DNA from: Achromobacter pulmonis
GTDB lineage: Bacteria; Pseudomonadota; Gammaproteobacteria; Burkholderiales; Burkholderiaceae_B
Direction of reading: 5' to 3'
Length of the DNA stretch: 64,000 nt
Assembly: GCF_902859765.1 (NCBI RefSeq)
Contig: NZ_CADIJV010000013.1
Coordinates: 1-64,000, forward strand
Positions 12,434-50,733 of this stretch are shown in pieces. The translations under genes were made by a program, and so were the position numbers. The notes under the pieces are model-generated. The model saw nothing but the letters and a program-made list of their open reading frames with translations, made no database searches and was not told where the DNA came from. Numbering within the stretch: the stretch's first letter is position 1; each line of letters begins with the position of its first letter.

Positions 12434-12457
12434 CCAAGTGGCTGAGCTACGGCGCGA

Positions 12458-14422: not shown

Positions 14423-14493
14423 AGGTCTAGGCTCTCTTGGGGAAAGTTCTAAGACAAGGGCAGTGTAGGGCTTTTTGGGGCGTTGAAAACTCA

Positions 14494-15491: not shown

Positions 15492-15509
15492 ATATAGGGG
15501 CGATGAATC

Positions 15510-17681: not shown

Positions 17682-17702
17682 GCCCGTTGCCGCGCGTGAT
17701 CA

Positions 17703-17742
17703 GCGCCCCGTTGCCGGACGGATCTGTCCGGCAACGGGGCGC
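17703..17742 (+). promoter_or_regulatory. Perfect 17-bp hairpin inside the TonB-receptor operon
   Basis: The arms 17703-17719 and 17726-17742 are perfectly complementary with a 6-base loop, 21 bases after the receptor stop and 17 bases before the next start. No T-tract follows. It is more likely an RNA processing or stability element, or an attenuator separating receptor from downstream expression, than a full terminator. Confidence 0.7.
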
Positions 17743-17759
17743 CGCTTGCAAGGATGACT

Positions 17760-35354: not shown

Positions 35355-36064
35355 TTCCCGGGCGTCGGCTTGCAGCCGTTGCCTAAGGTGATCGCGTGCT
35401 GGCCCGCGGCGTAACCGTAGACGGTCGCCGGCCAGATCGTTACCGTGCCGGTGGCGGCGGCGCGCTTGCCGGCCAGGGGCAGTTCGAAACGTTCACCGGG
35501 CAGCAGATAGGTCTTGGGCAGCGGCAGGTTGACGTTGCCGCTGTCCAGGCGCGCCTGTTGGGCCATTCGCACCACGTAGCCGCTGTCATTGCACAGGCGC
35601 AGTTTGCCGCCGTCGACGCTGGCGCTCAGGCGGGTCCAGGGGTCTTTCAGCTTTTCCAGCCCGCGCGGCTGGATGATCACCGGGATGTTCTGGCGAAAGG
35701 TCGTCTGCACCTGATTGTCGGCATCGCGCGCGAAGGGAATGCCCTCGAAGGTGGCGCGCTTGAGGCGCTGCGTGGCCAGCGGGCCCTTGCGGGTCAGCAT
35801 GAAGCGCACCAACTGCGATTGGCCGGCTTCCAGACGAGCCATCGGCGGGGTCACGACCAGCAGTTCTTCGGTGTCCTCGGCGACGTTCTCGATCGCCGAA
35901 TAGAGCAACACCGGCGCGGTGTCGGTGTTCTGTACGGTCATGGTGCCCTCGCCGGTGGCCTCATCGACGATGAGCACCGAGCTTTCGGGCACCACGCCGG
36001 CGGCGCCGGCGGCGTTGGCCAGCAGGGCGCCGGCCAGGGAAACAAGGGTCAGGAAGGTTTTCAT
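35351..36064 (-). CDS. Fimbrial periplasmic chaperone, cluster 1
   Basis: 237 residues from ATG 36064, which gives a clean signal peptide (MKTFLTLVSLAGALLANAAGAAG). The two-domain PapD-like Ig fold shows the subunit-binding strand motif LEAGQSQLVRFMLTR and the FRQNIPVIIQPRG segment, where the family's conserved basic residues lie. Homologues deliver pilins to the usher by donor-strand complementation. It is coupled to the usher by ATGA overlap. Confidence 0.9.
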   Translation of the reverse strand: MKTFLTLVSLAGALLANAAGAAGVVPESSVLIVDEATGEGTMTVQNTDTAPVLLYSAIENVAEDTEELLVVTPPMARLEAGQSQLVRFMLTRKGPLATQRLKRATFEGIPFARDADNQVQTTFRQNIPVIIQPRGLEKLKDPWTRLSASVDGGKLRLCNDSGYVVRMAQQARLDSGNVNLPLPKTYLLPGERFELPLAGKRAAATGTVTIWPATVYGYAAGQHAITLGNGCKPTPGK

Positions 36065-36129
36065 GGCAGCAGGTAAAAGACGTGTTGATGCCGGCCGCAA
36101 GCGGCCCGCGGTAATGGCCCTCGGAAGGC

Positions 36130-36756
36130 CTACAGGAAAATCGCCGACAGGCTGATCGAGCCGTCGAGCAGGGCCTCGCGGCCCAGGTACAAGGTGGCGG
36201 TCGGTGCGATCGCCGATTCGATCCGCACGCCGGCCGTCAGGCTGCGGCCGCTGGCCGGGCGGCGTTCGCCGCCGCGCGACCAGGCGATCAGGTCGGCGTC
36301 GCCGACTACCGTGTCGTCCTGCATGTCGCGCCAGGTGGCGCCGCCGTCGGACGAGATGATCAGTTGCGCTGGCACGCCATCGAGCGTGGCGCCGTCGCGC
36401 CGCCAGCGCAGCGCGAAAGCGCCCAGTGGCCGGCCGGATGCCCGCCCGAGTCCATGGCTGGTCTGCGGCGTCAGGCCCAGCCTGCCGCCGGCCGCCGGAT
36501 GGGCCGCGCCGTCGCTGGCCGACTGCCGCAAGGCGAGCCTCGCGGGCTGTTCACAGGTCAGCGTGAACTGACGTTGCTGCGGCGGCAACGGGGCGGCCTC
36601 GGCGGCGCGCAACAGGTTGCGCTTGATCCGGCCGTAGTCGATGGCGGCGCCGCCGCCAAGCTGGATCCGGCAGCCGGCCGCGGGCGGCGCCGCCCGGCTC
36701 GGGGCGCCAGGCGCGGCGCCCAGCAGGGCGCAAAGGAGTATCAGGTATGGCTTCAT
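36130..36756 (-). CDS. DUF1120-type fimbrial-associated secreted protein
   Basis: 208 residues with a signal peptide (to SRAAPPAAG). A single Cys pair (GCRIQLGGG; LTCEQPARLAL) and the closing strand SISLSAIFL match the pattern of its three upstream paralogues. The family includes E. coli YhcF/GltF, encoded beside a chaperone-usher pair. It is probably a pilin-like minor subunit. It is the most divergent of the four paralogues. Confidence 0.75.
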   Translation of the reverse strand: MKPYLILLCALLGAAPGAPSRAAPPAAGCRIQLGGGAAIDYGRIKRNLLRAAEAAPLPPQQRQFTLTCEQPARLALRQSASDGAAHPAAGGRLGLTPQTSHGLGRASGRPLGAFALRWRRDGATLDGVPAQLIISSDGGATWRDMQDDTVVGDADLIAWSRGGERRPASGRSLTAGVRIESAIAPTATLYLGREALLDGSISLSAIFL

Positions 36757-36794: not shown

Positions 36795-37466
36795 CTAAAG
36801 ATAGACAAGTGTCAGGACCGCGCCGCCGATGAAGGGGGTCTCGCTCGACAGACCCAGTCGGGCGGTACTGTCCAAGGCCACCTGAACCCGCATCGTGCCC
36901 ACGAATTCGCTGCCGGATACCGGTTCCTTCGATCCGCTCGGGCTCCAGGACTCCAGGCTGCCGTCGTCATGGAAGAAGTTGCCCACCGAGGGTTGCCAGG
37001 TAACGCCTCGGTCGCTGCTGTAGATGGAGTCGGTGGGCTGCTGGTCCACTTTGAAGCCGGGCACCAGTTGCAAGGCCCAGGCGCCCATGCTGCGTCCCGT
37101 ATCGTCGCGCAGCCCATACTGCCGCGAGGGCGACCAGCTCTTGCCGCTTCCGCCGAAGAACACGATGTCTTGCGAGAATGCCACCTTCCCGGCGTTGCTG
37201 TCGCTGATGGTCAGCGCCACTTGGGATTTCGCCTCGCAGGAAATACGCAGTTCGCGGTCGAGCGTGGGCAGCAAGGTGAAGCTGTCCCTTTTCAGCGCTT
37301 TGGGCTGGATCCGCCCATAGTTGAAGGTGCCTTGTTCGGCGATCTGCAAGGCGCAGGCGGCCGGCTTGATCTGGCCCTGCACCGCGATGTTCAGGGGAAC
37401 GTCCTGTGCCTGGCTCGCCAGCGGCATGGCCGCCACGGTCCAGCAAAACAAAGTTCGGAGTTTCAT
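36795..37466 (-). CDS. DUF1120-type secreted pilin-like protein
   Basis: 223 residues with a signal peptide (MPLASQA-QDV). It has the motif QIKPAACALQ (Cys1), FNYGRIQPKALKRDSFTLLP, LRISCEAKSQVALTISD (Cys2) and the C-terminal strand GAVLTLVYL. FNYGRI and INP-like segments are shared with the neighbouring paralogues, so the four genes arose by duplication. It is probably a minor fimbrial subunit. Confidence 0.8.
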   Translation of the reverse strand: MKLRTLFCWTVAAMPLASQAQDVPLNIAVQGQIKPAACALQIAEQGTFNYGRIQPKALKRDSFTLLPTLDRELRISCEAKSQVALTISDSNAGKVAFSQDIVFFGGSGKSWSPSRQYGLRDDTGRSMGAWALQLVPGFKVDQQPTDSIYSSDRGVTWQPSVGNFFHDDGSLESWSPSGSKEPVSGSEFVGTMRVQVALDSTARLGLSSETPFIGGAVLTLVYL

Positions 37467-37520: not shown

Positions 37521-38282
37521 TCAGAGGTAGCTGAGCGTGATGGTGGCTTCGCCACGGAACGTCAGGTTGTCGTTGAGCGTGAGTTCCGACTTCGGCGAGA
37601 TCACCGCGCCGATGACGATGTCGCCATCGAACAGCGAGGCCCTCACCGGCACGCTGGGTGTGGCCGCGTCCACGAAGGTCACGTAGTTCGAGCCGTCGGA
37701 CTTCAGTTGCGCGGCGTTCTCATCGGTGTCGGCCGCGGTGCTCCACGCGGCCCGGTCCTCGCTGGATGCGACCAGGGCCTTGACTGCCTTGCCATCGGTG
37801 GCGGCGGCGGTCGTGTAGCGGAAGTTGCGGAACTGGAACACGTAGCGGCCGATGCGGTTCGTCGCGGTCGCGACATCCACCAGGTCGTAGATGTAGCCCT
37901 TTTTCGACGCGGCGCGGATGCCGGTGGCCTTGTGATCGAGCGACTCATCGTAAGCCTTGGCGGCCTTGAGGGCGCCAGTGACCGACAGGGCCACGGCGGC
38001 ATCGCCGCCATCGCATTTGATGGACAAGGGCTGGACGATGGGGGCCAGCGGGGTTTCCGCTTTTTCCTTCAGCGAGGTCGGGTTGATCTTCTTCAGGTCG
38101 AAGGCCACCGATTTCGCGGCCGGGGTGCAACTGCCCGGGGTGATGACGCCACCCACCGCGACGTTCAGCCCGGCGGTTCCGGCGGGCGCGGACGGCGCGG
38201 CCGATGCATCGACCGAGGCCACGGCGCCGGCCGCGCAAGCCAGTGCGGCCAACAGGATCTTGCTGGATTGGAGATGGTTCAT
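37521..38282 (-). CDS. DUF1120-type secreted pilin-like protein
   Basis: 253 residues from ATG 38282; the frame is open far upstream, but this codon gives a signal peptide (SKILLAALACAAGAVASVDASA) and a GAGAG ribosome binding site. It shows VGGVITPGSCTPAAKSVAFDLKKINP, LSIKCDGGDAAVALS and the last strand ATITLSYL. About 40 percent of positions agree by eye with the next gene upstream (TGTIAPGSCTPAASALTFDM). It is a likely structural subunit. Confidence 0.85.
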   Translation of the reverse strand: MNHLQSSKILLAALACAAGAVASVDASAAPSAPAGTAGLNVAVGGVITPGSCTPAAKSVAFDLKKINPTSLKEKAETPLAPIVQPLSIKCDGGDAAVALSVTGALKAAKAYDESLDHKATGIRAASKKGYIYDLVDVATATNRIGRYVFQFRNFRYTTAAATDGKAVKALVASSEDRAAWSTAADTDENAAQLKSDGSNYVTFVDAATPSVPVRASLFDGDIVIGAVISPKSELTLNDNLTFRGEATITLSYL

Positions 38283-38329: not shown

Positions 38330-39064
38330 TCAGAGGTAGTTCAGCGTGATGGTGGCGCCGCCTTCGAATTTCAGGTCGCCGGTCAGCTTCAGGTCCTTCT
38401 TGGCGAGAATGAGAGGGGCGATGAGCAGTTCGCCTTCGAAGACGCTCGCCAGCGCCGGAACGGTTTGCGCCTTCTCGTCGGAAAAGGAGACGAAATTGCT
38501 GCCGTCGCGCTTGAGCTGGGCGGTATTCCAGCCGTTCTGGTCGCTGGTGTAGGCCCAGCTGACCTTGTCGTCGCTTGTGATCACGCTGGCCTTGGTGGAC
38601 GTGGAGCCCGTGCCGCCGCCGGTGTACGTGAAGTTGCGGAACTGCATGCCGTACACGCCGATGCGCTTGTTGCCATCGGCGGGGTCGACCAGGTCGTACA
38701 GCAACGGCTCGGAGGTCGACACGCCGGCGGGATGGTTCTTCAATTCCGAATCCCATTTTGCCGGGGCGGTGGTGCTGCTGGTGACATTCAGCGCGATCGC
38801 GGTGTCGGCGGTGCAGGTGATCTTGACCTTGTTGGTCAGCGCCGGCAGCATCGTCACCTTGTCGACGTTCAGCGATTTCGGATTGATGTTCTTCATGTCG
38901 AAGGTCAGGGCGCTGGCGGCCGGCGTGCAGCTACCGGGGGCGATGGTGCCGGTGACGTTGATCTTGAAGCTGGGGGCGGCGACGGGCGCGGTCTGGGCCA
39001 TGGCGCCGATGCTGGTGATGCACGCCAGAATGGCGGCGGAGAGCGTGCTGATATGGAGTTTCAT
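38330..39064 (-). CDS. DUF1120-type secreted protein, first gene of fimbrial cluster 1 (likely major subunit)
   Basis: 244 residues from ATG 39064; the frame continues upstream without a signal peptide. The signal peptide is ISTLSAAILACITSIGAMA. It has the two-Cys pilin-like pattern (TIAPGSCTPAAS; VKITCTADTAIALN) and the C-terminal donor-type strand GGATITLNYL. As promoter-proximal gene it is the best candidate for the major subunit. An RcsAB-box-like motif lies 116 bases upstream of the start. Confidence 0.85.
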   Translation of the reverse strand: MKLHISTLSAAILACITSIGAMAQTAPVAAPSFKINVTGTIAPGSCTPAASALTFDMKNINPKSLNVDKVTMLPALTNKVKITCTADTAIALNVTSSTTAPAKWDSELKNHPAGVSTSEPLLYDLVDPADGNKRIGVYGMQFRNFTYTGGGTGSTSTKASVITSDDKVSWAYTSDQNGWNTAQLKRDGSNFVSFSDEKAQTVPALASVFEGELLIAPLILAKKDLKLTGDLKFEGGATITLNYL

Positions 39065-39179
39065 GGAGTCTGAGAAGCGGAAGTGGATGCAGGTCGGTTG
39101 TTGTGTTCCAACGCGGCGGGCGCGAGCCCTTGCGTTCATCACGGAAACTAAGGTACCAACCGGACACTGCACCGCACCA

Positions 39180-39193
39180 TCAGACGATTCCGG
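39180..39193 (+). promoter_or_regulatory. RcsAB-box-like motif, copy C (fimbrial cluster 1 promoter region)
   Basis: TCAGACGATTCCGG matches 9 of 14 positions of TAAGAATATTCCTA, and the 13-base core ATCAGACGATTCC is identical to copy A in the regulator spacer. Copies B and C also share ACC before ATCAGAC. Confidence 0.55.
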
Positions 39194-39231
39194 TACTCGC
39201 GGCGCGTAGCGAGCAGCGCGGTGTTTTGCCC

Positions 39232-40380
39232 CTACGAGGCGGGTTTCATGATGCGCGCCAGCCACGCCGCGCGCAGCGTGGCGATATGCGCCACCGTGAT
39301 GTTCGCCCACTCCAGGGGGATCAGACGCGCGGCGACGTCGGGTGCCAGCAGCGGAATCCTGCGCCGAGCCGCTTCGCTGACCTTGGCCTTCTGGTTCGCG
39401 GGCGCGTAGTACATCGCTTCGGCGAAGGCCTGTTGCGCGGGCGGGCTCAAGGAATAATTGATGAAAGCCTGGGCCGCCTCGCCGTTCGGGCGGTCGGCCA
39501 CCCGCGCGATCAGGATGGGGACGGCGATCGTGCCTTCCTGGGGCACGGTCGTGGCGTAGCCGCTGAGGCTGTCCATCTGGCTCTGGCTGCGGGAATTCCA
39601 GCCCAACGCCAACAGCGCCTGGTTGCGCGCCACCATCCAGTACTGATTGGGGCGCGGGGTCCATGTCAGGATGTTCGGCGCCAGTTTTTCCAGATAGGCG
39701 AAGGCCGCGTCGAAGCTGGTGATGCCATCGGGCGCGCCGGCCAGCCGGTTGGCGAGCGTCGTCAGCGCGATCATGCTGCCATTGACGGCCTGGTTGGTGG
39801 ACACAGTCACTTTGCCGCGGTACTTGGGATCCCACATGTCGCGCCAGCTCTTGGGCGGCTGCGCGAACGCCGACTTGGCGTACACCAGCGTCATGGAATC
39901 GTACATGGCCGGCAGCGCCCAGAAGCCCAGCTCTCGGCCCATGGACCCCAGGTCGGCCGCGTTCGGGACAAGCGTGGGATCCAGCGGCGCGATCAGCTGC
40001 TCGGCCTGGGCCAGACGCGCATTGGGCGGGTCGATGATGACGACGTCGACCCGCGGCGCCATGCGTTGCGCGCGCAATACCGCCAGGGCGTTGCGCGAGT
40101 CGCGCACGGCGTAGTAGCTCACCGTGATGCCCGGATGCGCGGCTTCGAAGGGGCGGATGACCGTGCGCATGTATTTCTGGTCGAAGCCGTCCACGCCATA
40201 AGCCATGACGGTAAGCCGTGCCGGCGCAGCCGCCTGTGCCGCCACGGGCGGCAACCCGCTACCCGCGCAGGCCAGCAGCGCCAGGGCGATGAGCCGGCGC
40301 ACGGGCGTCGGCCGCGCGTGAGAAAGGGGACGCGCCCCGGGGCGGCGCGATTCTAGAGGCGTGTCAGGCATGGTTTTCAT
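39232..40380 (-). CDS. Orphan ABC-type periplasmic solute-binding protein in a signalling operon
   Basis: 382 residues with a late signal peptide (RLIALALLACAGSGLPPVAAQA). The fold is that of the polyamine/iron/thiamine class of binding proteins (LTVMAYGVDGFDQKYMRTVIRPFEAAHPGITV; VDVVIIDPPNARLAQAEQLI). The start overlaps the stop of the RcsB-like regulator (ATGA), so it is translated with it. No permease or ATPase gene adjoins. It may feed ligand information to the hybrid kinase of the same operon; that role is inference. Confidence 0.85.
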   Translation of the reverse strand: MKTMPDTPLESRRPGARPLSHARPTPVRRLIALALLACAGSGLPPVAAQAAAPARLTVMAYGVDGFDQKYMRTVIRPFEAAHPGITVSYYAVRDSRNALAVLRAQRMAPRVDVVIIDPPNARLAQAEQLIAPLDPTLVPNAADLGSMGRELGFWALPAMYDSMTLVYAKSAFAQPPKSWRDMWDPKYRGKVTVSTNQAVNGSMIALTTLANRLAGAPDGITSFDAAFAYLEKLAPNILTWTPRPNQYWMVARNQALLALGWNSRSQSQMDSLSGYATTVPQEGTIAVPILIARVADRPNGEAAQAFINYSLSPPAQQAFAEAMYYAPANQKAKVSEAARRRIPLLAPDVAARLIPLEWANITVAHIATLRAAWLARIMKPAS

Positions 40381-41021
40381 TTGAAGACATCGTGATTGAC
40401 GCCGAACATGACCAGTTCATGGTCGGTTTCCACATCCAGTTTGCGCATCGCGGCGATCTTGTGGGTGCTGACCGTCTTGACGCTGCGGTTCATGATGCGG
40501 GCGATGTCGCCCACCGAGGTGCCCGACAGAAAATGCCGCAGCACTTCCAGCTCTTTGGGCGAGAGCCGCGCGATCCGCGCCGCCGCATCCTGCGCTTCGC
40601 GCGGATAGGCGCTGAGCGCCGTCTGCTGCCCGCTGCGGTAGACCTGGTTCTTTTCGAGTGTGCCCAGCGCCGTCAGGATCTCGGCCAGGTCGCGGCTCTT
40701 GAACAACACGCCGCTGACGCCTTCCTCGTACAAGCTGGCGACGATCACCGGCGAGGTGATCATGGTATGGATCAGGATGCGCACCTTCGGAAAATGGCGG
40801 CGCAGGTATTGCACCAATGCCAGCCCGTCGCCATAACCGTCCTCCGACGGCATGTTGTAGTCGGTGATGATGATGTCGGGCGCCAGCTCGCGCGCCTTGC
40901 AGATGAGGTCGGTGGCGTTGGTGGCCTCGCCCACGACCTGGTAGCGGGCGGCGCCTTCGAGCACGTTGCGAACGCCCAGGATCACGACTTGGTGATCGTC
41001 GGCCAGCAGGATTCGGGTCAT
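40377..41021 (-). CDS. RcsB/RocA-like LuxR-type response regulator
   Basis: 214 residues with AGGAG before the ATG. Receiver domain with D8-D9, phospho-acceptor D54 (IIITDYNMP) and the YGDGLALVQYLRRHFP run that is also diagnostic of RcsB. The output domain reads LSPKELEVLRHFLSGTSVGDIARIMNRSVKTVSTHKIAAMRKL, a LuxR/NarL helix-turn-helix (quoted partly: NRSVKTVSTHKIAAMRKL). It should receive phosphate from the HPt domain of the hybrid kinase upstream. The DNA motif found twice before the operon and once before the fimbrial genes resembles the box bound by RcsB-type regulators, so autoregulation and fimbrial control are likely. Confidence 0.9.
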   Translation of the reverse strand: MTRILLADDHQVVILGVRNVLEGAARYQVVGEATNATDLICKARELAPDIIITDYNMPSEDGYGDGLALVQYLRRHFPKVRILIHTMITSPVIVASLYEEGVSGVLFKSRDLAEILTALGTLEKNQVYRSGQQTALSAYPREAQDAAARIARLSPKELEVLRHFLSGTSVGDIARIMNRSVKTVSTHKIAAMRKLDVETDHELVMFGVNHDVFK

Positions 41022-41091
41022 GGTATCGCTCCTTGTGTGATGCGCTTGGCGAGTTGGCCTGCGGTCTGTTCGGGCTGTTTTGGGGGCGTGA

Positions 41092-44000
41092 TTACAGTTC
41101 CTTGAATTGCTCCGCGATCTGCGCCAGGGTGCTCTTGATGGCGTTTTCGAGCACGGGCGTCAGCCCATCCGTGGCGATTTTCTGTTCGAGCACGCCACAG
41201 AAGCGGGCAATGTCCTCCGCGTTGACCACGACCAGCGAGCCGCGCATGCGGTGCAGCGTCGCCACGGCCGCGGCGGGATCGCGCGCCGCCAGGGCCGCCC
41301 GCATGGCGGCCATGTCTTCGCGCATGGTGGTGTGGAAGGCCGCCCGCAGGTGATCGTCATAGAACTCCTTGGGCTTGTTCGGCGGCGGGCCGGAGAACTT
41401 GGCGCTGATGATGCGCGCGCAGGCCGTGCTGAGCGCGTCGTGCAGCGTGCGCAGGTCCACGGGCTTGACCACCCAGGCGTTCAACCCGGCGGCGAAACCG
41501 GCTTCCCGTTGCGTCTGCAGCGCGTCGGCCGTCAAGCCGATGATGGGGGCGTTGGTGCTGCGCGCGCGTAGCGTGCGCACCAGTTCGTAGCCATTCATCA
41601 GCGGCATGTTCATGTCCGTGATCAGCACGTCGAACTCGTCGCTGTTCCAGCGGGCCAGGGTTTCCACGCCATCGGCGCACAGCGTTACTTCGCAACCCAG
41701 TTCTTCCAGTTGCCGCACCAGGAGGGTCCGGTTGACGGGGTTGTCCTCGGCGGCCAGCACGCGCAATCCCAGCCTGCGCAGCCCCGCATCCGGGCGGTAT
41801 GTGCCGGGGCCGGGATCATCGGTCGTGTCCGCTTCGGCCTGCTTGGCCTCGGCCGGGGTTGGCCTGCCGCGTTGCGCCAGGGCCACCGCCTCGACGATGC
41901 TGTGCCGCAGGTGACTGGTCACGTGGATTTCGGACAGGCTCCATTGCGGTTTGTCGGGGCCGTCGGGAATGCACGACACGCGCGGTCCGCTCCACTCGAT
42001 CGGCGGCAGACGCTCGGGCAGCAGTTCCACCAGGATGCCGTCGTCCTTGAGGGGCGCGGTGTTGTGCAGGGGACGCGCGTTGGCGCCGGCCAGCGTCAGC
42101 CAGGCGCAGGTATCCTGCGCCAGGTCCGCCACCGGCGCTCGCACCCAGACCGACGAGGACGCGGCGATCTCGCCGTTGCCCACCCGGTGCGTGGCGTCGG
42201 CCGTGATCCGCAACGGCAGCCTGAACGTGAACGCGCTGCCGCGGCCCGGGCTGCTGTCCAGGGTGATGGTGCCTTGCATCAGTTCGCACAGGCTGTGGCA
42301 GATGTAGAGGCCCAGCCCGGTGCTGGGCAGGGCGTGTCCGGGCGTGGCGTGCGCCTGATAGAACGGCTGGAAAAGATGCGGTTGCTGATCGGGCGCAATG
42401 CCCAGCCCGGTATCGGCGATGTGCCATTCGAGCATGGCCTGATGCTCGCTCGTGGCCCCCAGAGTCAGGTCGACCCGGACCCAGCCGGCTTCGGTGAACT
42501 TGATGGCATTGCTGACGAGGTTGTTCAAGACCTGCTTGATGCGCAGCGCATCGCCGTAGGCATAGACCGGCACATCGGTGGCGATGGTCGAGAAGAACTG
42601 CAGGCCCTTGGCGTCCGCGGTGGCCGCATAGGCCTGCAAGATTTCCTCGGTGAGCGTGGCCGGGTCGAGCCGGTGATCCTTGAGGGTCATCTGGCGCGAC
42701 TCGATCTTGGACACGTCCAGGATGTCGTTGATCACATTGAGCAGACCGGCCGACGAGGTCTGGATGGTGCGCAGGTAGCCGCGTTGCAGGTTGGTCAGCG
42801 GCGTCAGGCCGAGCAGCTCGACCGTACCCAGGGTGCCATAGAGCGGCGTGCGGATTTCGTGGCTCATGGTCGCCAGGAACACCGTCTTGCCCGCGTTGGC
42901 GTCGTCGGCGGCGCGCTTGGCTTGCGCCAGCGCGGTCTGCACGCGTTTGTGGTCGCTGATATCGCTGAACGTGGCCAGGACCACATCCTGGCCCTGGTAG
43001 GTCAGGCGCGAGGCGCTGAAACTCAGGTGCCGGCCATTGATCTCGACTTCGCCGGTCTTGGCCGGGCTGTCGGGCGCGAAGGTGAGGCGCCTGACGATTT
43101 CCTCGTCCCCCAGCCAGTCGTCGGCCAGGCGGTTCTTGGCGACGATGCGGTGGTCGCTCACGCGCAGCGCGCAGACCGCCACGCGCGCGGCCTCGATCAC
43201 CGCGCGGTTGAAGGACTCGCTTTCGACCACCCGTTCATGGCTGGCCTGGGCCGGCCGCACCACCAGGTTGCGATGGCGCCGGTACAGCACCACACAGCCG
43301 CCCGCGCACAACAGGATCAGCGCCGCGAAAGCGGTCAACTGCCTGGGCGCGGCCTGGAAGAACTGGGTGTAGGGCACGAGGTAGCTGGCGGTCCAGCCGT
43401 CATCGCACCAGGTGGTGATGCGGGTGCCTTCCAGCCCGAAATGCACGCGGCTGTGGACTTCCTCGAGCGCGCCATGTTCGCTGGCGCCGCCTAACAGTTT
43501 GGCGCCCGGCAAAATGTCCAGGCGCTCGAAGTACACGCGGCCATAGTCCGGGTCGCCGTTGTATACGTCGCGCATTTCGATGAAGGTCGCCAGCACCAGG
43601 TCGCGCTTGGGCGTATCGGGCAGCCACAGCGCGTCCGGCAGCTCGATGGCGCTGTACACCACATAGCCGAGACGGTCCGCGCCGCCGCTGGGCAGGGTGA
43701 CGCTGATCCAGCGGTCGCCGGCCGGACTGGGGCGACTCGACTGGGTGTAGATCAGTTCGCGCACCCGGTCCGCCGACAGGGGGCAGCGCCACCAGCGGTG
43801 CACGTCGTCGGTCATGGAATCCTCGGAGCACGGCACCGAGATGCTGACTGGGCTGTTCAGGTCGAGCAGGAAGCCTTGCATGCCGGGCTGCTGCCAGGCG
43901 CTGCGATAGGTGCCATAGACGTTGGACAGCCCGGCCGCCACGGTCTGCAAGCGGCTGGCCAGATCGCCGCCGGCAGCGCTGTCATCACGCTTGACCTTGA

Positions 44001-44367
44001 TGATGTAAGGCATCGCCAGGCTTTCGCGCTGGCCCTCGTAGGTATTGGTGACAGCGTCGCTGTCGATCAGGTCGAACGAGGCCGGGCGTGCCTGCGGCGG
44101 GGCCAGCGCGAGCCGGACGGCATCGTTGCGGGTGGCGCGGGCCAGGAAGGATTCCTGGCCATGCAGGTTGGCGGCGAGCTGCTGGAAATGCGTGCGGGCC
44201 TCATTGCTGGCCAGGTGGATCAGGCCATTCACAATCCAGTAGCACAGCACCAGCATGATCACGGTAATGATCAGCGTCACGATGAAAAGCGCCTGCACCC
44301 GCAGGGAGATGCGGGCCAGATCGCCGATGGTGGCGATGCGGGTGAACCTGGGCGTTGAGCGCGGCAT
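41092..44367 (-). CDS. Hybrid sensor kinase with receiver and HPt domains (RcsC/BvgS-like phosphorelay)
   Basis: 1091 residues from ATG 44367, three bases after the stop of the preceding gene; the longer frame lies inside that gene. TM1 about 25-48, a periplasmic domain of about 300 residues that I do not recognise (four or five Cys visible), TM2 about 350-372, a PAS domain, HisKA with SHEIRTPLYG, an ATPase domain with NNLVSNAIKF and DTGLGI, a receiver with DMNMP acceptor, and a C-terminal HPt with LHRMRGSL. The presence of H1-D1-H2 means that only the separate RcsB-like regulator is needed to complete the relay. The transmitter resembles RcsC; the sensor domain does not show BvgS-type Venus flytraps. 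Confidence 0.93.
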   Translation of the reverse strand: MPRSTPRFTRIATIGDLARISLRVQALFIVTLIITVIMLVLCYWIVNGLIHLASNEARTHFQQLAANLHGQESFLARATRNDAVRLALAPPQARPASFDLIDSDAVTNTYEGQRESLAMPYIIKVKRDDSAAGGDLASRLQTVAAGLSNVYGTYRSAWQQPGMQGFLLDLNSPVSISVPCSEDSMTDDVHRWWRCPLSADRVRELIYTQSSRPSPAGDRWISVTLPSGGADRLGYVVYSAIELPDALWLPDTPKRDLVLATFIEMRDVYNGDPDYGRVYFERLDILPGAKLLGGASEHGALEEVHSRVHFGLEGTRITTWCDDGWTASYLVPYTQFFQAAPRQLTAFAALILLCAGGCVVLYRRHRNLVVRPAQASHERVVESESFNRAVIEAARVAVCALRVSDHRIVAKNRLADDWLGDEEIVRRLTFAPDSPAKTGEVEINGRHLSFSASRLTYQGQDVVLATFSDISDHKRVQTALAQAKRAADDANAGKTVFLATMSHEIRTPLYGTLGTVELLGLTPLTNLQRGYLRTIQTSSAGLLNVINDILDVSKIESRQMTLKDHRLDPATLTEEILQAYAATADAKGLQFFSTIATDVPVYAYGDALRIKQVLNNLVSNAIKFTEAGWVRVDLTLGATSEHQAMLEWHIADTGLGIAPDQQPHLFQPFYQAHATPGHALPSTGLGLYICHSLCELMQGTITLDSSPGRGSAFTFRLPLRITADATHRVGNGEIAASSSVWVRAPVADLAQDTCAWLTLAGANARPLHNTAPLKDDGILVELLPERLPPIEWSGPRVSCIPDGPDKPQWSLSEIHVTSHLRHSIVEAVALAQRGRPTPAEAKQAEADTTDDPGPGTYRPDAGLRRLGLRVLAAEDNPVNRTLLVRQLEELGCEVTLCADGVETLARWNSDEFDVLITDMNMPLMNGYELVRTLRARSTNAPIIGLTADALQTQREAGFAAGLNAWVVKPVDLRTLHDALSTACARIISAKFSGPPPNKPKEFYDDHLRAAFHTTMREDMAAMRAALAARDPAAAVATLHRMRGSLVVVNAEDIARFCGVLEQKIATDGLTPVLENAIKSTLAQIAEQFKEL

Positions 44368-44369
44368 CG

Positions 44370-45554
44370 TCAGACGGCGGGATTCCGTTTGAGGAATCCC
44401 AGCAGCAATTCGGGGGTCAGGGCGCGGGATATCAGGAAGCCCTGCGCCATGTCGCACTGCATCTTCTTGAGCTGGGCCAGTTGTTCCCAGGTTTCGACGC
44501 CTTCGGCCACCACGTTCAGCGCCAAACGCCGGCCCAGTGAAACGATGCTCTCGACCGCGGCCTGCGCGCCGTCGTCGGTAACGCAGCGGCTGATCAGGGA
44601 GCGGTCTATCTTCAGTTCGGTGAAGGGGGTGGACACCAGGTTGAACACCGAGCTGTAGCCCTGGCCCGAATCGTCCTGGGCCAGGCCGAAGCCCTTCATC
44701 CTCAGGCGGCAGGCGCCCGCGTAGTAATCGCTTATCGCATCCGTGGTCGTGCCCTCGGTCAGTTCAAAGCAGATGTCCCGCGGGTTGCCCCCCAGGCGCA
44801 TGACGTGGTCGTACAGGCGGTCCGGCAATTCGGCGTCCTGCAGCAGGTGCGTCGGCAAATTGACGGAGACTTCCACCCGGAAGTCATGCTGCTGCCAGGC
44901 GTGTTGCGCGGTAATGGTCTGTGCGAGCATCGACAATAGCAGGTCGTCTTCGAGCTCGTCCAGTATCAGGGCCGGCAGGAATTGGCCGGGCAGCAGCACG
45001 CTGCCATCGGGGCGAACCCAGCGCACCAGGGCTTCGGCGGCCACGATGGTGCCATCGCCGATCCGCATCTTGGGTTGGAACCAGGCGCGGATTTCGCCCG
45101 AGGTCAAGGCTTGCTGCAATGCGGCACGGTCGAACATCTGGCCCGATACCAGCGATTCCGCCTTGAGCCGCGAGGCGGCCTTCAGCTTGGCCACCAGGGC
45201 GATGATGGCCTGGGGCTGGGCCGGCTTGGACAATTGGTCGATGACGCGCATGCCCAGCGTCTTGGCCACCAGGCTGGCGCCGGAGATCAGGCGCTTGGGC
45301 GAGGAACTGATCACCGCCAGCAGCGGCGGGGTTTCGTAGGTGGACAGGCGCTGGATCAGCTGCACGCCGTCCAGCTCGGGCATGAGCAGATCGCTCAGCA
45401 CCAGGTCGTAGGGTTGTTGCTCCAGCAGGCGCAAGGCATGCGAGCCGTTCTCAGCGGTTTCCACATGCGCGATGCCGGCCTGGAGAAACAGGTTTTTCAG
45501 GTACTCGCGCTGCAATAGTTGGTCGTCGACGATCAGGACGCGATAGGACAACAT
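44370..45554 (-). CDS. REC-EAL response regulator, c-di-GMP phosphodiesterase (RocR-like)
   Basis: 394 residues from ATG 45554; upstream frame is unconserved. The receiver (1-125) has D10-D11, acceptor D55 (VLSDLLMPELDG) and the SKP lysine. The EAL domain has E174-A-L, VNLPTHLL, CFELTEGT, KIDRSL, AEGVET and QGFLISRAL, so the catalytic set is complete. Loop 6 reads DDSGQGYSS instead of DDFGxGYSS; the Phe-to-Ser change is odd in a loop that couples dimerisation to activity. As the first gene of the phosphorelay operon it parallels RocR in the Pseudomonas RocSAR system, where it opposes fimbrial gene expression. Confidence 0.92.
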   Translation of the reverse strand: MLSYRVLIVDDQLLQREYLKNLFLQAGIAHVETAENGSHALRLLEQQPYDLVLSDLLMPELDGVQLIQRLSTYETPPLLAVISSSPKRLISGASLVAKTLGMRVIDQLSKPAQPQAIIALVAKLKAASRLKAESLVSGQMFDRAALQQALTSGEIRAWFQPKMRIGDGTIVAAEALVRWVRPDGSVLLPGQFLPALILDELEDDLLLSMLAQTITAQHAWQQHDFRVEVSVNLPTHLLQDAELPDRLYDHVMRLGGNPRDICFELTEGTTTDAISDYYAGACRLRMKGFGLAQDDSGQGYSSVFNLVSTPFTELKIDRSLISRCVTDDGAQAAVESIVSLGRRLALNVVAEGVETWEQLAQLKKMQCDMAQGFLISRALTPELLLGFLKRNPAV

Positions 45555-45676
45555 GGCTTGTAATCTCCAAGGGGGCGGCCCGGCTCGTCCAGGACGGAAC
45601 GGGCCGAGCGGTAATGGCGTGCACGCGTCGGCGGTCGGCAGTCCGCCATTAGAGCGATCCATGACCAAGCCCGGTA

Positions 45677-45690
45677 TCAGACGATTCCTA
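45677..45690 (+). promoter_or_regulatory. RcsAB-box-like motif, copy A (phosphorelay operon spacer)
   Basis: TCAGACGATTCCTA matches 11 of 14 positions of TAAGAATATTCCTA. It lies 123 bases upstream of the REC-EAL start and is inverted relative to copy B. Confidence 0.6.
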
Positions 45691-45739
45691 ATCGACGGCC
45701 GGAAGGGCACGGCGTTTCGACGGCCTGGCGGTGGCGCTT

Positions 45740-45753
45740 TAGGAACTGTCTGA
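45740..45753 (-). promoter_or_regulatory. RcsAB-box-like motif, copy B (inverted)
   Basis: On the minus strand TCAGACAGTTCCTA, 10 of 14 matches. It lies 186 bases upstream of the REC-EAL start and 58 bases before the divergent pseudo-receiver gene, so it could serve either. Confidence 0.55.
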
Positions 45754-45810
45754 TGGTCGCGGCGAAGCGGCGTTTCTAGAATCCCATGCTTCCAATTCCG
45801 TGCTTTCGCC

Positions 45811-46227
45811 GTGGCCCATTTCGCCTTTCTGCACAACCTGCATGTGCACGCCCAATACCTCGACCGCGCCGAGCGCCTCGCGACCTGTCTGAAGGAGTCG
45901 GTGGCGACCGTCAGCCTCTATGCGGAGACCCAGGCCAGCCTGTATGCGCGGGCTGGCGCGCCGGGCAGGCACTACCTGCTGGTCGAGGGGCGCTCGTCGT
46001 GGCTGCTGCGCTTCCTGGCGGTGCCGCATTGCCCGCGGCTGGCCGGCGTGATCGCGATCGTCAGCGATCGGGCGGGCTCGGCCGATCGCGCCAAGCTCCT
46101 GCTGGCGGGCGCGGACGTCTGCCTGCCCGGCTCGGCCTTGCCGCGGGAGATGGTGGCGGCGCTGTCGGTGTTGGCGCGTATGGAACGCCGGCTCGCCGTT
46201 GCCGACCAGGGCCAGCAGGCAGCGTGA
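45811..46227 (+). CDS. Stand-alone degenerate receiver-like protein
   Basis: 138 residues from a GTG. The pattern of hydrophobic strands and the late segment IAIVSDRAGSADRAKLLLAG followed by ADVCLPGSALPREMVAALSV resembles the second half of a response-regulator receiver, as in winged-helix regulators with poorly conserved receivers, but there is no acidic pocket, no phospho-acceptor Asp at the expected place and no output domain. It is divergent from the phosphorelay operon and shares its spacer with both RcsAB-like boxes. It may be an accessory partner of one of the regulators; that is a guess. Start uncertain, as no ribosome binding site is visible. Confidence 0.6.
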   Translation: MAHFAFLHNLHVHAQYLDRAERLATCLKESVATVSLYAETQASLYARAGAPGRHYLLVEGRSSWLLRFLAVPHCPRLAGVIAIVSDRAGSADRAKLLLAGADVCLPGSALPREMVAALSVLARMERRLAVADQGQQAA

Positions 46228-46548: not shown

Positions 46549-47295
46549 TCAGTCGCCGGTGCGCTCCTGGAACACGCACAGGCCCGCTTCGCAGCGGTAG
46601 CGGTTCATGCGCAGGCCGCCATAATCATCGACGTTGCCCAGCATCAACTGGCCGGCGCTGGCGGGCAGCACTGCCTTCAGCGTCTGCTCCGACCGCGGCG
46701 CCAGCATGACGGGCGTGTCGAAGCCTGGCAGCCGCTGCTTGCGGTCCGTGCCCAGCCAGAGCACCGTGACGTAGTAGGGCGATGCATTCTTGAGCGTCAG
46801 CGTGCGGCCGTCGGTGCGCGCCTGCAAGGTCTGTTCCGGCGCGGCCTCGCCGCGCGCGGCCAACTCGGCCGGGCGCAGGAACAGCTTGATCTGGCTTTGC
46901 GTGGTCAGTTGCAAAATGCTGGCGTCCTTGTCTTTCGGCGCTGGCGGGATCTCGCGCACGTTGAAATAGAACAGGCTTTCTCGGTCCTGCGGCAGGCGCG
47001 CCCTGGCGGCGGCGCTCATCTGCGCGATCCGTACCTGCGCCTTCTTGCCCGCGTCGATGCGCTGCAGCGGCGGCAGCGCCAGCAGGTCGTTGGTGATGTT
47101 GCCATCCTGGTCTTCGATCCAGGACTGCGCCAGGTAGGGAATGTCGGCGCTTTCGTTGGTCAGCACCACGGAGACTGATTTTTGCGCGGCGCCCATGATG
47201 ATGCGGGTCCGGTCCACGTTGATCGCGGCCTGGCCAGGGGCGGAGCAGGCCAGCAGCGCCCCCAGGAGGGGCGCCGCCAAATGTTTGGTGTTCAT
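46549..47295 (-). CDS. Fimbrial periplasmic chaperone, cluster 2
   Basis: 248 residues from ATG 47295 with a signal peptide (LLACSAPGQAA). PapD-like: INVDRTRIIM opening, SVVLTNESADIPYLAQSWIED, VNVREIPP-like FYFNVREIPPAPKD and QIKLFLRPAEL with the conserved Lys. A C-terminal Cys pair (YRCEAGLC) is typical of some chaperones. It is last in cluster 2, separated from the usher by a 61-codon remnant, and has no good ribosome binding site. Confidence 0.9.
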   Translation of the reverse strand: MNTKHLAAPLLGALLACSAPGQAAINVDRTRIIMGAAQKSVSVVLTNESADIPYLAQSWIEDQDGNITNDLLALPPLQRIDAGKKAQVRIAQMSAAARARLPQDRESLFYFNVREIPPAPKDKDASILQLTTQSQIKLFLRPAELAARGEAAPEQTLQARTDGRTLTLKNASPYYVTVLWLGTDRKQRLPGFDTPVMLAPRSEQTLKAVLPASAGQLMLGNVDDYGGLRMNRYRCEAGLCVFQERTGD

Positions 47296-47348
47296 GGCTG
47301 TCTGAAAAAGGAAAACGGGGGAGTCCGGATTCACGGACGGCTCGGCGC

Positions 47349-47534
47349 TCAAGAGTAGGCCAACGCATCAGTGACGCTGGCCGAGATCGAGCCGGGGGGG
47401 CGCGGCGGGGCCTGCAATCGGTTGGCGCAGTGGTCAAGGAAATCGAAACGCAGGTCGCCCGCGCCAGGCATCGTCAGAGGCGGAATACGCGGCGCTGACG
47501 AGCGCGCTAGGGTCGAGTCGGCGAGCGGCTTCAT
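47349..47534 (-). pseudogene. Remnant of a fimbrial adhesin/subunit gene (61 codons), coupled to the usher
   Basis: The ATG at 47534 overlaps the usher stop (ATGA), the usual position and coupling of a tip-adhesin gene. The 61 residues start MKPLADSTLARSS without a usable signal peptide and end GSISASVTDALAYS, close to the pilin-type closing strand (compare VNSSVTYTLSYF in the cluster 2 pilin). Beginning and end of a subunit gene with the middle missing suggests an internal deletion. A genuine small protein cannot be excluded. Confidence 0.5.
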
Positions 47535-50020
47535 TGGCATGGCAGGGGCTGCGGCCCCGCCTCCAGGGTGGTTGGTGCGGGCAGGGTCAGGTGGCATTCC
47601 CGCTCGCCGGCCCAGGTCACGGTGAGCGCATCGCGGTCCTGCGCGTCCAGGCCGCTCAGGTAGACCAGCCCGTCATCGCCCACCATGCCGGCGCCGCGGC
47701 CGGTGCGGGTGGACAACACCACCGCGCCCAGCGGCGGACTGCTGCCGTCGGCCAGCCGTACGTGGCCCAGGATCTGTTCGCCCTGGCTGGCGCGGATGCG
47801 CGAGTAGCCGATGGCTCCTTCGGTCAGCACCTGGCCGATGACCGACTCGGCCACCTCCACGCCGTCGGGCAATGCGTTCACGTCCACCGAGATGCTGCTC
47901 TCGTGATAGCTCGATACGCCATTGACCACCGCGATGCCGAAGCGGTTGGTGACGCCGCTGCCGTTGTCCACCGGCACGTCGCCGATGCCGTCGGTGTCGA
48001 TCATCATGCGCGGCTCGTTGCCGGCGCCGGGCTGGCCGAAGGCCGCGCCCGCGGCCGTGGCGGTCACCGAGCCATACCAGTTCAGGCCGATGTTGCGGTA
48101 CTGGCCCGGCTGCACGGTGAAGTCGGCGCTGGCGCGGCCATAGGGCGTGCGGCTTTGGATGTTGCCGCTCAGGCTCTGGCGCTGCGCGTCGGCGCTGCGT
48201 TCGTCGCTCGCGCTCAGGTTCCAGGTGGTGTCCGGACGGCTGAAGTCGGTGTAGCCGGCGGTGTGCTGCATGCGGCCGTTGCCGCTGTTCTGGTAGCCGT
48301 AGTTCAATTGGCGGCTGTCGCCCAGCGGGATGCCGAGCGTGACATACATCTGGTTCTCGGTCTGGCCGTAAATGCCCTGGGTGCGGGCGAGCGACAGCGA
48401 CAGGTTGACGTTGCGCAGCGCGCCGAAGCTGGCATTCTTGCTGAGCGACAGCATGTAGTGGTTGTTGCTGGCGCCGTCGTTCCAGTAGTTCAGCCGGCTC
48501 AGCGACAGCGACACGCTCATGTCGAGCGCGCGCAGGTACTGGCTGTACGCCACCGTGTAGCTCTGCTTCTCGTCGCGGAAGTATTCGTCGCGCAGGGCCG
48601 CGCGCGCGATGTAGTCCTGCAACGACAGGAAGTGCCGCCCCGAGAACCGGTAACCCATGAAGGCGATGGTGCTGCCCAGGTCGTCGAAGGTCTTGGCGTA
48701 GTTGACGCGGTAGCTGTAGCCGATGCGGCGCGGCGCGCCCGAGAACGGCAGCCGCGCATCCGAGCGTGTGACGTCGGCCGACAGCGCGCCCAGCACGCCC
48801 AGGTTCTGACCGGCGCCCAACGCCAGCGCGTGGTAGTTGCCGTTGGTGGCGATCAGGCCGCCATACAGCGAGGTGTCGTTGAACGCGCCCCAGGTGGCCT
48901 CGCCCATGATGAAGCCGGGAGCGGCCAGCTGGTTGTTGGCGCGGCCGCCGAACAACGGCCGCCCGGCCGACACCTGGTAGCGCAGGTTGCCCTTGCGCGT
49001 CATGAAGGGCACGCTGGCGGTGGTGATCTGCCAGCTGCGCGTGCTGCCGTCGCTTTCCTGCAGCGTCACGTCCAGGTTGCCGCTGATGTTGCGGTTCAGC
49101 GCCGGCAGCACGAAGGGGCCGGGCGATACCCGCGTCTGGTACAGCAGGCGGCCGTTCTGGCTGACCGTCACCTGCGCGTTGCTGTTGGCGATGCCGGTCA
49201 CCTGCGGTGCATAGCCCTGCAGCGACGGCGGCAGCATGCGTTCATCACTGGCCAGCGTGATGCCGGCGAAGCGGAACGGGTCGAAGATGGAAGACGCCAG
49301 GTAGGTCTGGCCCAGCGTCAGCCTGGATTGCCACTGCGGCAGCGGCCGGAACAGGTAGGTCTGCGGCAGGCTGAAGCTGGCCTGCGTGCCGCCGCGGCTG
49401 TCGTAGCGGTTGTACTGGTAGTCGCTGCGCAGGCGCCAGGCGCCCAGGTTCAGGCCGGCGGTGCCATAGAGCGTGTAGCTGGCGGTGTCGCCGCCCTGCC
49501 GCGCCATGTTGCGGTTGGCCAGCAGGTTGTAGTCCAGCAGCACGCCGTTCACGCCGTGGCTCCAGCGCGCCGGCGGCACCCAGTCGGGGTCCTGGTATCG
49601 CAGCCAGGCCTGCGGCACGGTCACCGTCAGCGACTGGCTGTCGGGGCTGTAGTCGACCTTGCTGGTGGGCGTGTCCAGGTCGATGCAGGTGCCTTCGGCG
49701 GTGTTGACGCGGGCCAGCCGCGCGACGACGTCGTCCTTGAGCGTGAGCATGTCGAGCATTGCCGCGGTGATGCAGAATGCCGTGCCGTCGTCGATCACCG
49801 GCACGGCCTTGACCAGGTACTGGCTCTGGATCAGCCGCTGGTTCAGATAGAAATCCACCAGGTAGGCGCCGGGTGCGACGTAGCCGTCGCGGCTGAAAGT
49901 CGACAAATCGACGTTGCGCTTGTCTTTGGTATTGAGAAAGACGCTGCTGAATTCCGTGGCCTGCGCCGATAGCACAAAAGTACTGATTGCCATGATGGAT
50001 GCCAAACGGGCCAGGGTCAT
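47531..50020 (-). CDS. Fimbrial usher, cluster 2
   Basis: 829 residues from ATG 50020, giving a signal peptide (IMAISTFVLSAQA-TEF); the frame extends upstream without one. The usher pattern is clear: N-terminal domain with FLNTKDKRNVDLSTFSRDG and YLVDFYLNQ, barrel with QVTVSQNGRLLYQTRVSPGP, DVTLQESDG, and C-terminal TRTGRGAGMVGDDGLVYLSG. It is nearer to the classical type 1 fimbrial ushers than the cluster 1 usher is. It follows the pilin after a GC-rich hairpin. Confidence 0.93.
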   Translation of the reverse strand: MTLARLASIMAISTFVLSAQATEFSSVFLNTKDKRNVDLSTFSRDGYVAPGAYLVDFYLNQRLIQSQYLVKAVPVIDDGTAFCITAAMLDMLTLKDDVVARLARVNTAEGTCIDLDTPTSKVDYSPDSQSLTVTVPQAWLRYQDPDWVPPARWSHGVNGVLLDYNLLANRNMARQGGDTASYTLYGTAGLNLGAWRLRSDYQYNRYDSRGGTQASFSLPQTYLFRPLPQWQSRLTLGQTYLASSIFDPFRFAGITLASDERMLPPSLQGYAPQVTGIANSNAQVTVSQNGRLLYQTRVSPGPFVLPALNRNISGNLDVTLQESDGSTRSWQITTASVPFMTRKGNLRYQVSAGRPLFGGRANNQLAAPGFIMGEATWGAFNDTSLYGGLIATNGNYHALALGAGQNLGVLGALSADVTRSDARLPFSGAPRRIGYSYRVNYAKTFDDLGSTIAFMGYRFSGRHFLSLQDYIARAALRDEYFRDEKQSYTVAYSQYLRALDMSVSLSLSRLNYWNDGASNNHYMLSLSKNASFGALRNVNLSLSLARTQGIYGQTENQMYVTLGIPLGDSRQLNYGYQNSGNGRMQHTAGYTDFSRPDTTWNLSASDERSADAQRQSLSGNIQSRTPYGRASADFTVQPGQYRNIGLNWYGSVTATAAGAAFGQPGAGNEPRMMIDTDGIGDVPVDNGSGVTNRFGIAVVNGVSSYHESSISVDVNALPDGVEVAESVIGQVLTEGAIGYSRIRASQGEQILGHVRLADGSSPPLGAVVLSTRTGRGAGMVGDDGLVYLSGLDAQDRDALTVTWAGERECHLTLPAPTTLEAGPQPLPCQ

Positions 50021-50120
50021 GATGTCTTTTGCCGTCTCTCCGGCATGAGGGGGGGCCGGAAACACTCGGCGGCGACGTGGCGCGGCAGCCACCTCGGGAC
50101 GAAAAGGGAACGCGCCGGCC

Positions 50121-50152
50121 GCGCCCCGCCGCGTGGGCGGGGGGCGGGGCGC
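50121..50152 (-). promoter_or_regulatory. GC-only hairpin between pilin and usher genes
   Basis: Perfect 10-base all-GC stem (50121-50130 with 50143-50152), loop 12, starting 12 bases after the pilin stop. It has no T-tract. In chaperone-usher operons such elements stabilise the pilin transcript and lower usher expression. Confidence 0.65.
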
Positions 50153-50163
50153 CGCCGGGCCGC

Positions 50164-50733
50164 TTAGAAATAGCTCAGCGTGTAGGTGACCGAACTGTTG
50201 ACCGTGCCGGCGCCGCCGACGCCGGTGGCAAAGAGCCGTGCGAAGAAGTTCAGCGCGTTGCCGGCGCCGCCGCCGTCCGTCATCTGCTGGGCGTTGGCGG
50301 CCGCGGGCGCGGTGGTGAAATTGACGGGAGCGGTGTTGGTCTTGTCGAGGATCTGGACCACGACGTTGGCGGCGGTGCCGGTATTGGTGAGCTTGCCAGT
50401 CGCCGCGTCGCTGACGGCGCCGGTGAAGGCGATGCCGACTTTCGACAGATTGGTGGCCGGCGTGCCGGTTGGTGTGCCGAAGGAGCAGCCCGTCAGGTGG
50501 ATGCTGATCGGCACCGAGGCGGAGAATTTGTTGGCTGCGCTCAGGTCCTTCTTGGAGATCTGGCCCAGGTCGATGACCTGGTTCGAGTCGGCGGCGGTGA
50601 TGCTGCATGGCGCTTCCGTGACCGAACCGGTGAAGGTGATGGTGCCTTGGCCCATGTCGCCGGCGGCGAACGCGGCGAGCGGGCTGAGCAGGGCGGCGCT
50701 GGCGGCGGTGGCGAGGAGCGTTTTCTTGAACAT
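50164..50733 (-). CDS. Type 1-like fimbrial major subunit, cluster 2
   Basis: 189 residues with AGGA upstream and a signal peptide (TAASAALLSPLAAFA-AGD). Pilin hallmarks: GTITFTGSVTEAPCSI with Cys1, HLTGCSFG with Cys2, and the closing strand SSVTYTLSYF with the penultimate Tyr. The mature protein has about 166 residues, normal for FimA-type pilins. First gene of cluster 2. Confidence 0.95.
   Translation of the reverse strand: MFKKTLLATAASAALLSPLAAFAAGDMGQGTITFTGSVTEAPCSITAADSNQVIDLGQISKKDLSAANKFSASVPISIHLTGCSFGTPTGTPATNLSKVGIAFTGAVSDAATGKLTNTGTAANVVVQILDKTNTAPVNFTTAPAAANAQQMTDGGGAGNALNFFARLFATGVGGAGTVNSSVTYTLSYF

Follow-up and report, generated by a model that had tools for sequence, protein, structure and literature searches.

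The system analysed here, a phosphorelay operon and a chaperone-usher fimbrial operon that share a set of conserved promoter boxes, is located on a 64,000-nucleotide stretch of Achromobacter pulmonis DNA (contig NZ_CADIJV010000013.1, positions 1 to 64,000; the whole of this stretch is referred to as the window), and its closest known counterpart is the PvrSR/RcsCB-cupD system of Pseudomonas aeruginosa. According to the available portions of PMC3842833, RcsB activates cupD in P. aeruginosa and PvrR opposes the expression of cupD, overproduction of RcsB induced pvrR, pvrS, rcsC and rcsB, and, in strain PA14, the bases GAA at positions -78 to -76 of cupD1 are crucial for promoter function. The likeness to the Achromobacter locus is found in the gene content, as outlined in the available parts of PMC3842833 and PMC2696094: a PvrR-type REC-EAL protein, a hybrid kinase with an Hpt domain and an RcsB-like regulator are encoded beside a chaperone-usher fimbrial operon, and the fimbrial promoter carries an RcsB-box-like site, cupD1 being compared by its published description and not base by base. 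The differences are that P. aeruginosa has two sensors, PvrS and RcsC, whereas the Achromobacter operon has one hybrid kinase; that a solute-binding protein is encoded in the Achromobacter operon; that the nearby fimbria is of the DUF1120 type and an unlinked fimbria of the Csu type; and that one geometry of box and -10 element recurs at four promoters. Judging from the sequence, we consider it quite probable that the boxes are the operators of the RcsB-like regulator of this same operon, which would activate, from the class II position, its own operon, a divergent small gene and the fimbriae.

Two further systems of the fimbrial kind are comparable. The Roc1 system of P. aeruginosa (RocS1-RocA1-RocR) applies the same logic, i.e. 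a kinase, a NarL-type regulator and a REC-EAL protein, to the cupB and cupC fimbriae, as far as it is described in the available portions of PMC3842833 and PMC12051241; the REC-EAL protein of Achromobacter differs in fitting the PvrR family best, and the Roc sites are compared by description, not base by base. With the Csu, or archaic, chaperone-usher pili, the unlinked target shares the SCPU subunit, the chaperone, the usher and the tip-like SCPU protein, the difference being that the Achromobacter operon is apparently under a PvrR/RcsB-type system.

The boxes themselves are best compared with those of the enterobacterial Rcs phosphorelay. The RcsAB box consensus is TaAGaatatTCcta, as given in a figure legend of PMC4325325, and in the structure of Escherichia coli RcsB on flhDC, as described in the available part of PMC5829831, the half-sites TTAGGAA and TCTAAGA are read by residues K180 and S184. 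The initial annotation had counted 11, 10 and 9 matches out of 14 positions for the three boxes of the window, which is correct against this consensus; the count ranges from 7 to 11 over the 21 Achromobacter sites that we have compared, 18 of which were located by their position in alignments and three, upstream of the Csu-type operon, by the motif, so that the agreement of these three with the motif is by selection. The five conserved (capital) bases of TaAGaatatTCcta are present at all 21 sites, as in the enterobacterial box, from which the Achromobacter boxes differ by their fixed GTCTGAT half; the label of RcsAB box, as originally applied, goes too far for these sites, which are a relative of the RcsB type. 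The box upstream of the REC-EAL operon contains TTAGGAA exactly, identical to the flhDC half-site, and in the alignment of the regulator with its RcsB match from the Protein Data Bank (PDB), K180 is kept and S184 is replaced by T.

Three 14-mers had been noted in the window, at 45677-45690 (+), 45740-45753 (-) and 39180-39193 (+), and all three have been verified at these positions and strands. Read in the direction of transcription, the box core is GGAA-nn-GTCTGAT (reverse complement ATCAGAC-nn-TTCC). Box B (ATCAGACGATTCC on the plus strand, 45676-45688) faces the REC-EAL operon on the minus strand, with the -10-like hexamer TCTAAT (45648-45653, -) located 22 nucleotides past the box; this hexamer is TCTAAT in five of the six genomes with the locus and TCCAAT in the remaining one. 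Box A (ATCAGACAGTTCC on the minus strand, 45742-45754) lies in the same spacer, 53 bp from box B and inverted to it, and faces the small gene 45811-46227 on the plus strand, with the -10-like hexamer TAGAAT (45777-45782, +) again 22 nucleotides past the box; TAGAAT occurs in five of the six genomes, and in genome G025 it is GACAAT, displaced by 1 nucleotide. Box F (ATCAGACGATTCC on the plus strand, 39179-39191) faces fimbrial cluster 1 on the minus strand, with a weak -10-like hexamer, TACCTT (39150-39155, -), situated 23 nucleotides past the box in all six genomes. The location of the boxes in two spacers was therefore described correctly, and the assignment of 45740-45753 to the REC-EAL operon was not: this box belongs to the divergent small gene, so the two spacers hold three promoters. 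A fourth promoter, that of the unlinked Csu-type operon, has TGTAAT 22 nucleotides past its box, and the spacing of 22-23 nucleotides is thus common to four different promoters. The proposed -10 elements are based on position and conservation; consensus promoter scans of the REC-EAL spacer and of the fimbrial spacer returned no sigma-70 pair of -35 and -10 hexamers. If transcription starts about 7 nucleotides past the -10 element, the boxes would occupy positions of about -47 to -35, i.e. the position of a class II activator (near -41), and the lack of a -35 hexamer paired with the proposed -10 elements fits activator dependence.

The comparison of the orthologous loci has been conducted in six genomes, i.e. 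our own (G000) and G040, G025, G020, G029 and G031, where the gene order is the same as far as the contigs reach; the contig of G031 stops inside the solute-binding gene, and its fimbrial promoter is located on another contig. All six genomes known to carry the regulator retain the three boxes, each at its own promoter, although the rest of the spacer sequence has diverged. Of the 26 box columns in the REC-EAL spacer, 23 are invariant over the six sequences (11 of 13 in box B and 12 of 13 in box A), versus 45 of 225 columns elsewhere; box A is the top 13-mer of the spacer by conservation, and when the spacer is divided into non-overlapping windows of 13 bases, the two boxes take the first ranks, with 12 and 11 invariant columns, and the ribosome-binding region comes next with 8. 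For the fimbrial spacer the figures are 10 invariant columns out of 13 in the box and 44 out of 150 elsewhere, the best windows being the GTCTGAT half extended by the 6 nucleotides that follow it (11), the -10 region (10) and the GGAA half with the bases upstream of it (8); the box of G020 has a single core change, from G to A. The link that was initially drawn between the phosphorelay operon and the fimbrial operon through RcsB-type, operator-like sites is thus conserved in all six loci.

The frequency of the motif has been followed through the window, the own genome (5.67 Mb, 91 contigs), a genus sample of 43 genomes and a family sample of 268 genomes. The 14-base pattern TCAGACGATTCCTA is in excess in the window at up to 3 mismatches, with 6 matches against a mean of 1.54 in shuffles (maximum 4 among 100 shuffles); at up to 2 mismatches, the three matches in the window are the three noted 14-mers. 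Over the own genome, the same threshold returns 7 matches, these three included, and the reversed control 4; the loose 14-mer is hence indecisive by itself, so that a tighter pattern and the relatives are needed. The exact core ATCAGACNNTTCC occurs four times in the own genome, at the three boxes and once on contig C9, versus about 1.07 occurrences expected from base composition and none of the reversed core. Over the six regulator carriers, the bare core has 25 matches, 20 of them at the proposed promoters and 5 elsewhere (reversed control 0); the exact matches outside the four promoters are unconvincing as targets.

The tighter pattern, in which the box is joined to its -10 element (GGAANNGTCTGAT-N22-TNNAAT), is matched exactly at 3 places of the own genome, of which 45648-45688 and 45742-45782 are located in the window, against an expectation of about 0.0009 from base composition; there are no matches at 1-2 mismatches and 29 at 3 mismatches, the fimbrial cluster 1 promoter among them (reversed control, 10 at up to 3 mismatches). 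In the family, 14 exact matches are found, all in 6 of the 268 genomes, with none in the other 262 and none for the reversed control; they correspond to 6 REC-EAL, 5 divergent-gene and 3 Csu promoters, the strict pattern missing the 6 promoters of fimbrial cluster 1 (23 nucleotides and TACCTT, i.e. 3 mismatches) and the divergent promoter of G025 (shifted by 1 nucleotide). The regulator, at 84-100% identity, is present in exactly the same 6 of 268 genomes (11 candidates scored per genome); the regulator search of the genus scored every candidate in 42 of the 43 genomes, and in G021 it covered 71 out of 79. The initial annotation had named frequent occurrence elsewhere in the genome and lack of conservation in relatives as findings that would speak against it: neither the exact core nor the core with its -10 element is spread over the own genome, and the boxes stand in all six orthologous loci. 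As a separate observation, genome G029 holds a one-mismatch match to the composite pattern with the hexamer TATAGT (L195:1718; C45:175189-175229), without a clear target gene.

The core match on contig C9 (box at G000:C9:156210-156222) has led, through the motif search and from outside the window, to a Csu-type (SCPU) fimbrial operon (L201:7158-13105) whose promoter shares the box and its distance to the -10 element; SCPU domains are found in its first and tip-like proteins, together with a PapD_N chaperone and an Usher protein. The same off-locus promoter stands upstream of a Csu-type operon in G020:C5 and G031:C375. Close orthologues of the first Csu subunit (84-100% identity) are present, among the 43 genus genomes, only in the own genome, G020 and G031, the next best match being at 41% in G013, and all three genomes have both the box and the regulator. 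The Csu-type operon of G013, a genome without an orthologue of the regulator, has no box, the sole match at up to 2 mismatches in 7.5 kb being located inside another open reading frame (ORF); its distance makes this operon unsuitable as a clean control. Since the off-locus operon has the same promoter layout, the regulon as we infer it would reach an unlinked locus, and the proposal that it is self-contained has to be given up.

The first gene of the phosphorelay operon (44370-45554, -) encodes the REC-EAL protein, a PvrR-like putative phosphodiesterase of cyclic diguanylate (c-di-GMP) with Pfam REC and EAL domains. AEALVRW, VSVNL, FELTE, QDD, ELKID, AEGVE and AQGF, which correspond to the usual catalytic motifs of EAL domains, are legible in its translation. 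Against the NCBIfam PvrR family (NF052596) it scores 552.3 bits (E 4.8e-166), just under the equivalog cut-off of 580. A PvrR-family search of the class, with at most four candidates scored per genome, returned the own genome as the sole match among 369 sampled genomes at E <=1e-100, and 0 of 14 controls; no relatives of the REC-EAL protein were found on plasmids at E <=1e-60. The gene is followed by that of the hybrid histidine kinase (41092-44367, -), with Pfam HisKA, HATPase, REC and Hpt domains, whose top NCBIfam family is RcsC at 365 bits versus a cut-off of 920, and by that of the RcsB-like response regulator (40377-41021, -), the presumed binder of the boxes, with Pfam REC and GerE domains. 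The RcsB hallmarks initially attributed to the regulator are borne out in that RcsB is its nearest family, both as the top PDB match (E 3.7e-37) and as the top NCBIfam family (NF008098), and have to be qualified in that its score of 148.6 bits stays under the equivalog cut-off of 235; the same distance separates it from the regulator of the enterobacterial Rcs phosphorelay. As none of the PvrR, RcsB and RcsC cut-offs is reached, the proteins of the operon are relatives and not formal members of these families. Among named records, the regulator is encoded at 86-89% identity in those of A. ruhlandii LMG 1866 and of Achromobacter sp. UMC71 and ASV32. The last gene (39232-40380, -) encodes a periplasmic solute-binding protein (Pfam SBP_bac_8), the presumed signal partner; in the window, G025 and G020 there is an overlap of 4 nucleotides between its start and the stop of the regulator gene, which was not seen in G040, G029 and G031.

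Taken together, these elements suggest the following course of events. A periplasmic signal, perhaps perceived via the solute-binding protein encoded after the regulator, would set the hybrid kinase, and phosphate would pass from His to Asp to His through the HisKA-REC-Hpt relay and on to the regulator. A dimer of the regulator would read two unequal half-sites, GGAA and GTCTGAT, and, covering the region from about -47 to -35 in promoters without a matching -35 hexamer, would recruit RNA polymerase, activating its own operon, the divergent small gene and fimbrial cluster 1, as well as the unlinked Csu-type fimbria where it is present. The co-produced PvrR-like phosphodiesterase would lower c-di-GMP and limit the response, acting as a built-in brake, as has been argued for PvrR of P. 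aeruginosa.

The alternatives that retain a regulatory role for the boxes differ in who reads them and to what effect. The boxes might be read by another paralogue (42-47% identity) of the NarL/RcsB family, acting either by itself or in a heterodimer with the regulator of the operon: the own genome encodes further RcsB-like regulators on contigs C5 and C22 (42-44% identity), and similar sites in vitro are described for RocA1, RocA2 and RocA3 of Pseudomonas in the available part of PMC12051241. We regard this as unlikely, given that paralogues at 42-47% are listed in 30 of the 37 congeners without an orthologue of the regulator and exact composite sites in none of the 37, and that a different palindrome, TAAGANNNNTCTTA, is located by the paralogue on C5; the test by paralogues is not a clean one, as the congeners without the orthologue also lack the targets (as tested for Csu). 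A similarly small share of the probability goes to the boxes being repressor sites of the operon regulator, where binding at about -41 would block polymerase over the -35 region. The box position does overlap this region, and RcsB is both an activator and a repressor at gadA, as stated in the portion of PMC4325325 that was available; against repression stand the missing -35 hexamers and the activation of cupD and raising of pvrR by RcsB in P. aeruginosa (PMC3842833, available text). That the inverted pair at 45676-45754, two short inverted repeats around 53 bp, is a recombination or inversion site appears very improbable, as the orientation of the pair is identical in all six genomes and the box also occurs unpaired at two further promoters. 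Chance similarity is the least credible of all: single chance matches do occur, the bare core being found 27 times in the 37 congeners without the orthologue (reversed control 8), but the boxes are conserved at fixed positions and the 14 exact matches to the composite pattern are confined to regulator carriers, which contradicts this reading.

The operator reading is preferred because of the conservation of the boxes within diverged spacers, the one geometry at four promoters, and the motif having led to a second fimbrial operon. Several findings weigh against it. Besides the ability of RcsB to repress, the score of the regulator under the RcsB cut-off and the matches to the bare core in non-carriers, the composite pattern becomes unspecific at up to 2 mismatches (107 matches in 34 of the 43 genus genomes, reversed control 20); the -10 element of fimbrial cluster 1 is weak and offset by 1 nucleotide, and that of box A in G025 is displaced; and close Csu orthologues are limited to 3 of the 43 genomes, the own genome included. 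Moreover, none of the genomes searched was found to have the targets and lack the regulator, and as inheritance has largely kept the boxes, the operon and the targets together, it is in part trivial that all of them are missing elsewhere.

What is new here is the sequence and geometry of the sites, the layout with a single kinase and a binding protein, and the apparent control of two fimbrial classes; literature searches on Achromobacter and on Bordetella, covering open-licence papers, showed none concerning this system among the titles listed. The analysis would provide a precise operator and promoter geometry for an RcsB-like fimbrial regulator outside enterobacteria and Pseudomonas, with a motif directly usable for finding further targets, and it predicts that two unrelated fimbrial classes and a c-di-GMP phosphodiesterase are switched on by a single signal. 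In the airways of cystic fibrosis patients, where attachment and biofilm matter, Achromobacter occurs as an opportunist.

Fimbrial cluster 1, on the minus strand downstream of box F, comprises four subunit-like genes, a single one of which is above the Pfam cut-off for DUF1120. The first subunit (38330-39064) scores 17.4 versus 21 bits for DUF1120 and is a paralogue of the second (37521-38282), which has no Pfam match and 39-44% identity to the first-subunit genes across loci; they are followed by the subunit above the cut-off (36795-37466), by a DUF1120-like subunit just under it (36130-36756; 20.5 versus 21 bits), by a presumed chaperone (35351-36100), so named from its ORF and position, and by the outer-membrane usher (32925-35354; Pfam Usher, 1.4e-79). 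The divergent small gene, with its own conserved promoter box, has a GTG start in all six genomes and 66-75% identity to its five orthologues, and its product matches nothing in Pfam or NCBIfam and nothing meaningful in the PDB. A reading of this product as a degenerate receiver domain, prompted by PA1468 in the available text of PMC3842833, gained no support from three analyses: the best match of a PDB profile search has E 0.91, hhalign gives 21% probability against six receiver domains, and AlphaFold2 (6 sequences) gives a mean predicted local distance difference test (pLDDT) of 50.8. Adjoining the small gene is a second chaperone-usher cluster (window 46549-50608, -), which is adjacent in G040 and G020 as well; the window scan shows no 14-mer match at up to 2 mismatches near it.

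Lastly, parallel relays of the same type have been observed in the own genome, which encodes at least two further PvrR-like proteins, on C22 and C49. The locus on C22 (L210; 253-894, 925-4194 and 4291-5538, -) is a third operon with PvrR-like, kinase and RcsB-like genes, its regulator matching that of the window at 44% and its REC-EAL protein at 51%; sequences that loosely resemble an RcsB box lie at 5625 and 5909. When the 450 nucleotides upstream of 35 regulator entries (34 distinct genes) were scanned, boxes of the same kind as those of the window were present in 3 entries only; a looser filter, which asked for the five conserved bases and for 9 or more of the 14 positions, returned several matches at three paralogue loci, some of them inside genes. 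A perfect palindrome, TAAGATTCTTCTTA, is located at L061:7615 (G000:C5:170614-170627), about 139 nucleotides upstream of the paralogous RcsB-like regulator, and the own genome has the pattern TAAGANNNNTCTTA twice (on C5 and C49), each time by relay genes, versus one place for the reversed control; across the genus, 14 of the 43 genomes have the pattern, at 21 places in all, versus 81 for the reversed control, a rate not above chance, so that it is only a lead. It is conceivable, and we hold it as a tentative idea of less than even probability, that parallel RcsB/PvrR-type relays are insulated by private box variants, ATCAGAC-nn-TTCC for the regulator of the window and TAAGANNNNTCTTA for the paralogue, which may serve a second PvrR/autotransporter locus; if true, this would amount to a readable specificity code, with one regulator family running separate adhesion programmes within one cell. 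The PvrR-like locus on C49 (L209) has two kinases and relay genes at 10712-18098 (-), and no regulator was found there by tblastn. The site on C49, TAAGAATCGTCTTA at L209 7127-7140, is located about 115 nucleotides before an autotransporter-like ORF with an autochaperone domain (7256-10645, +), and is identical by letter in G020, where the same kind of ORF is located behind it, and in G040.

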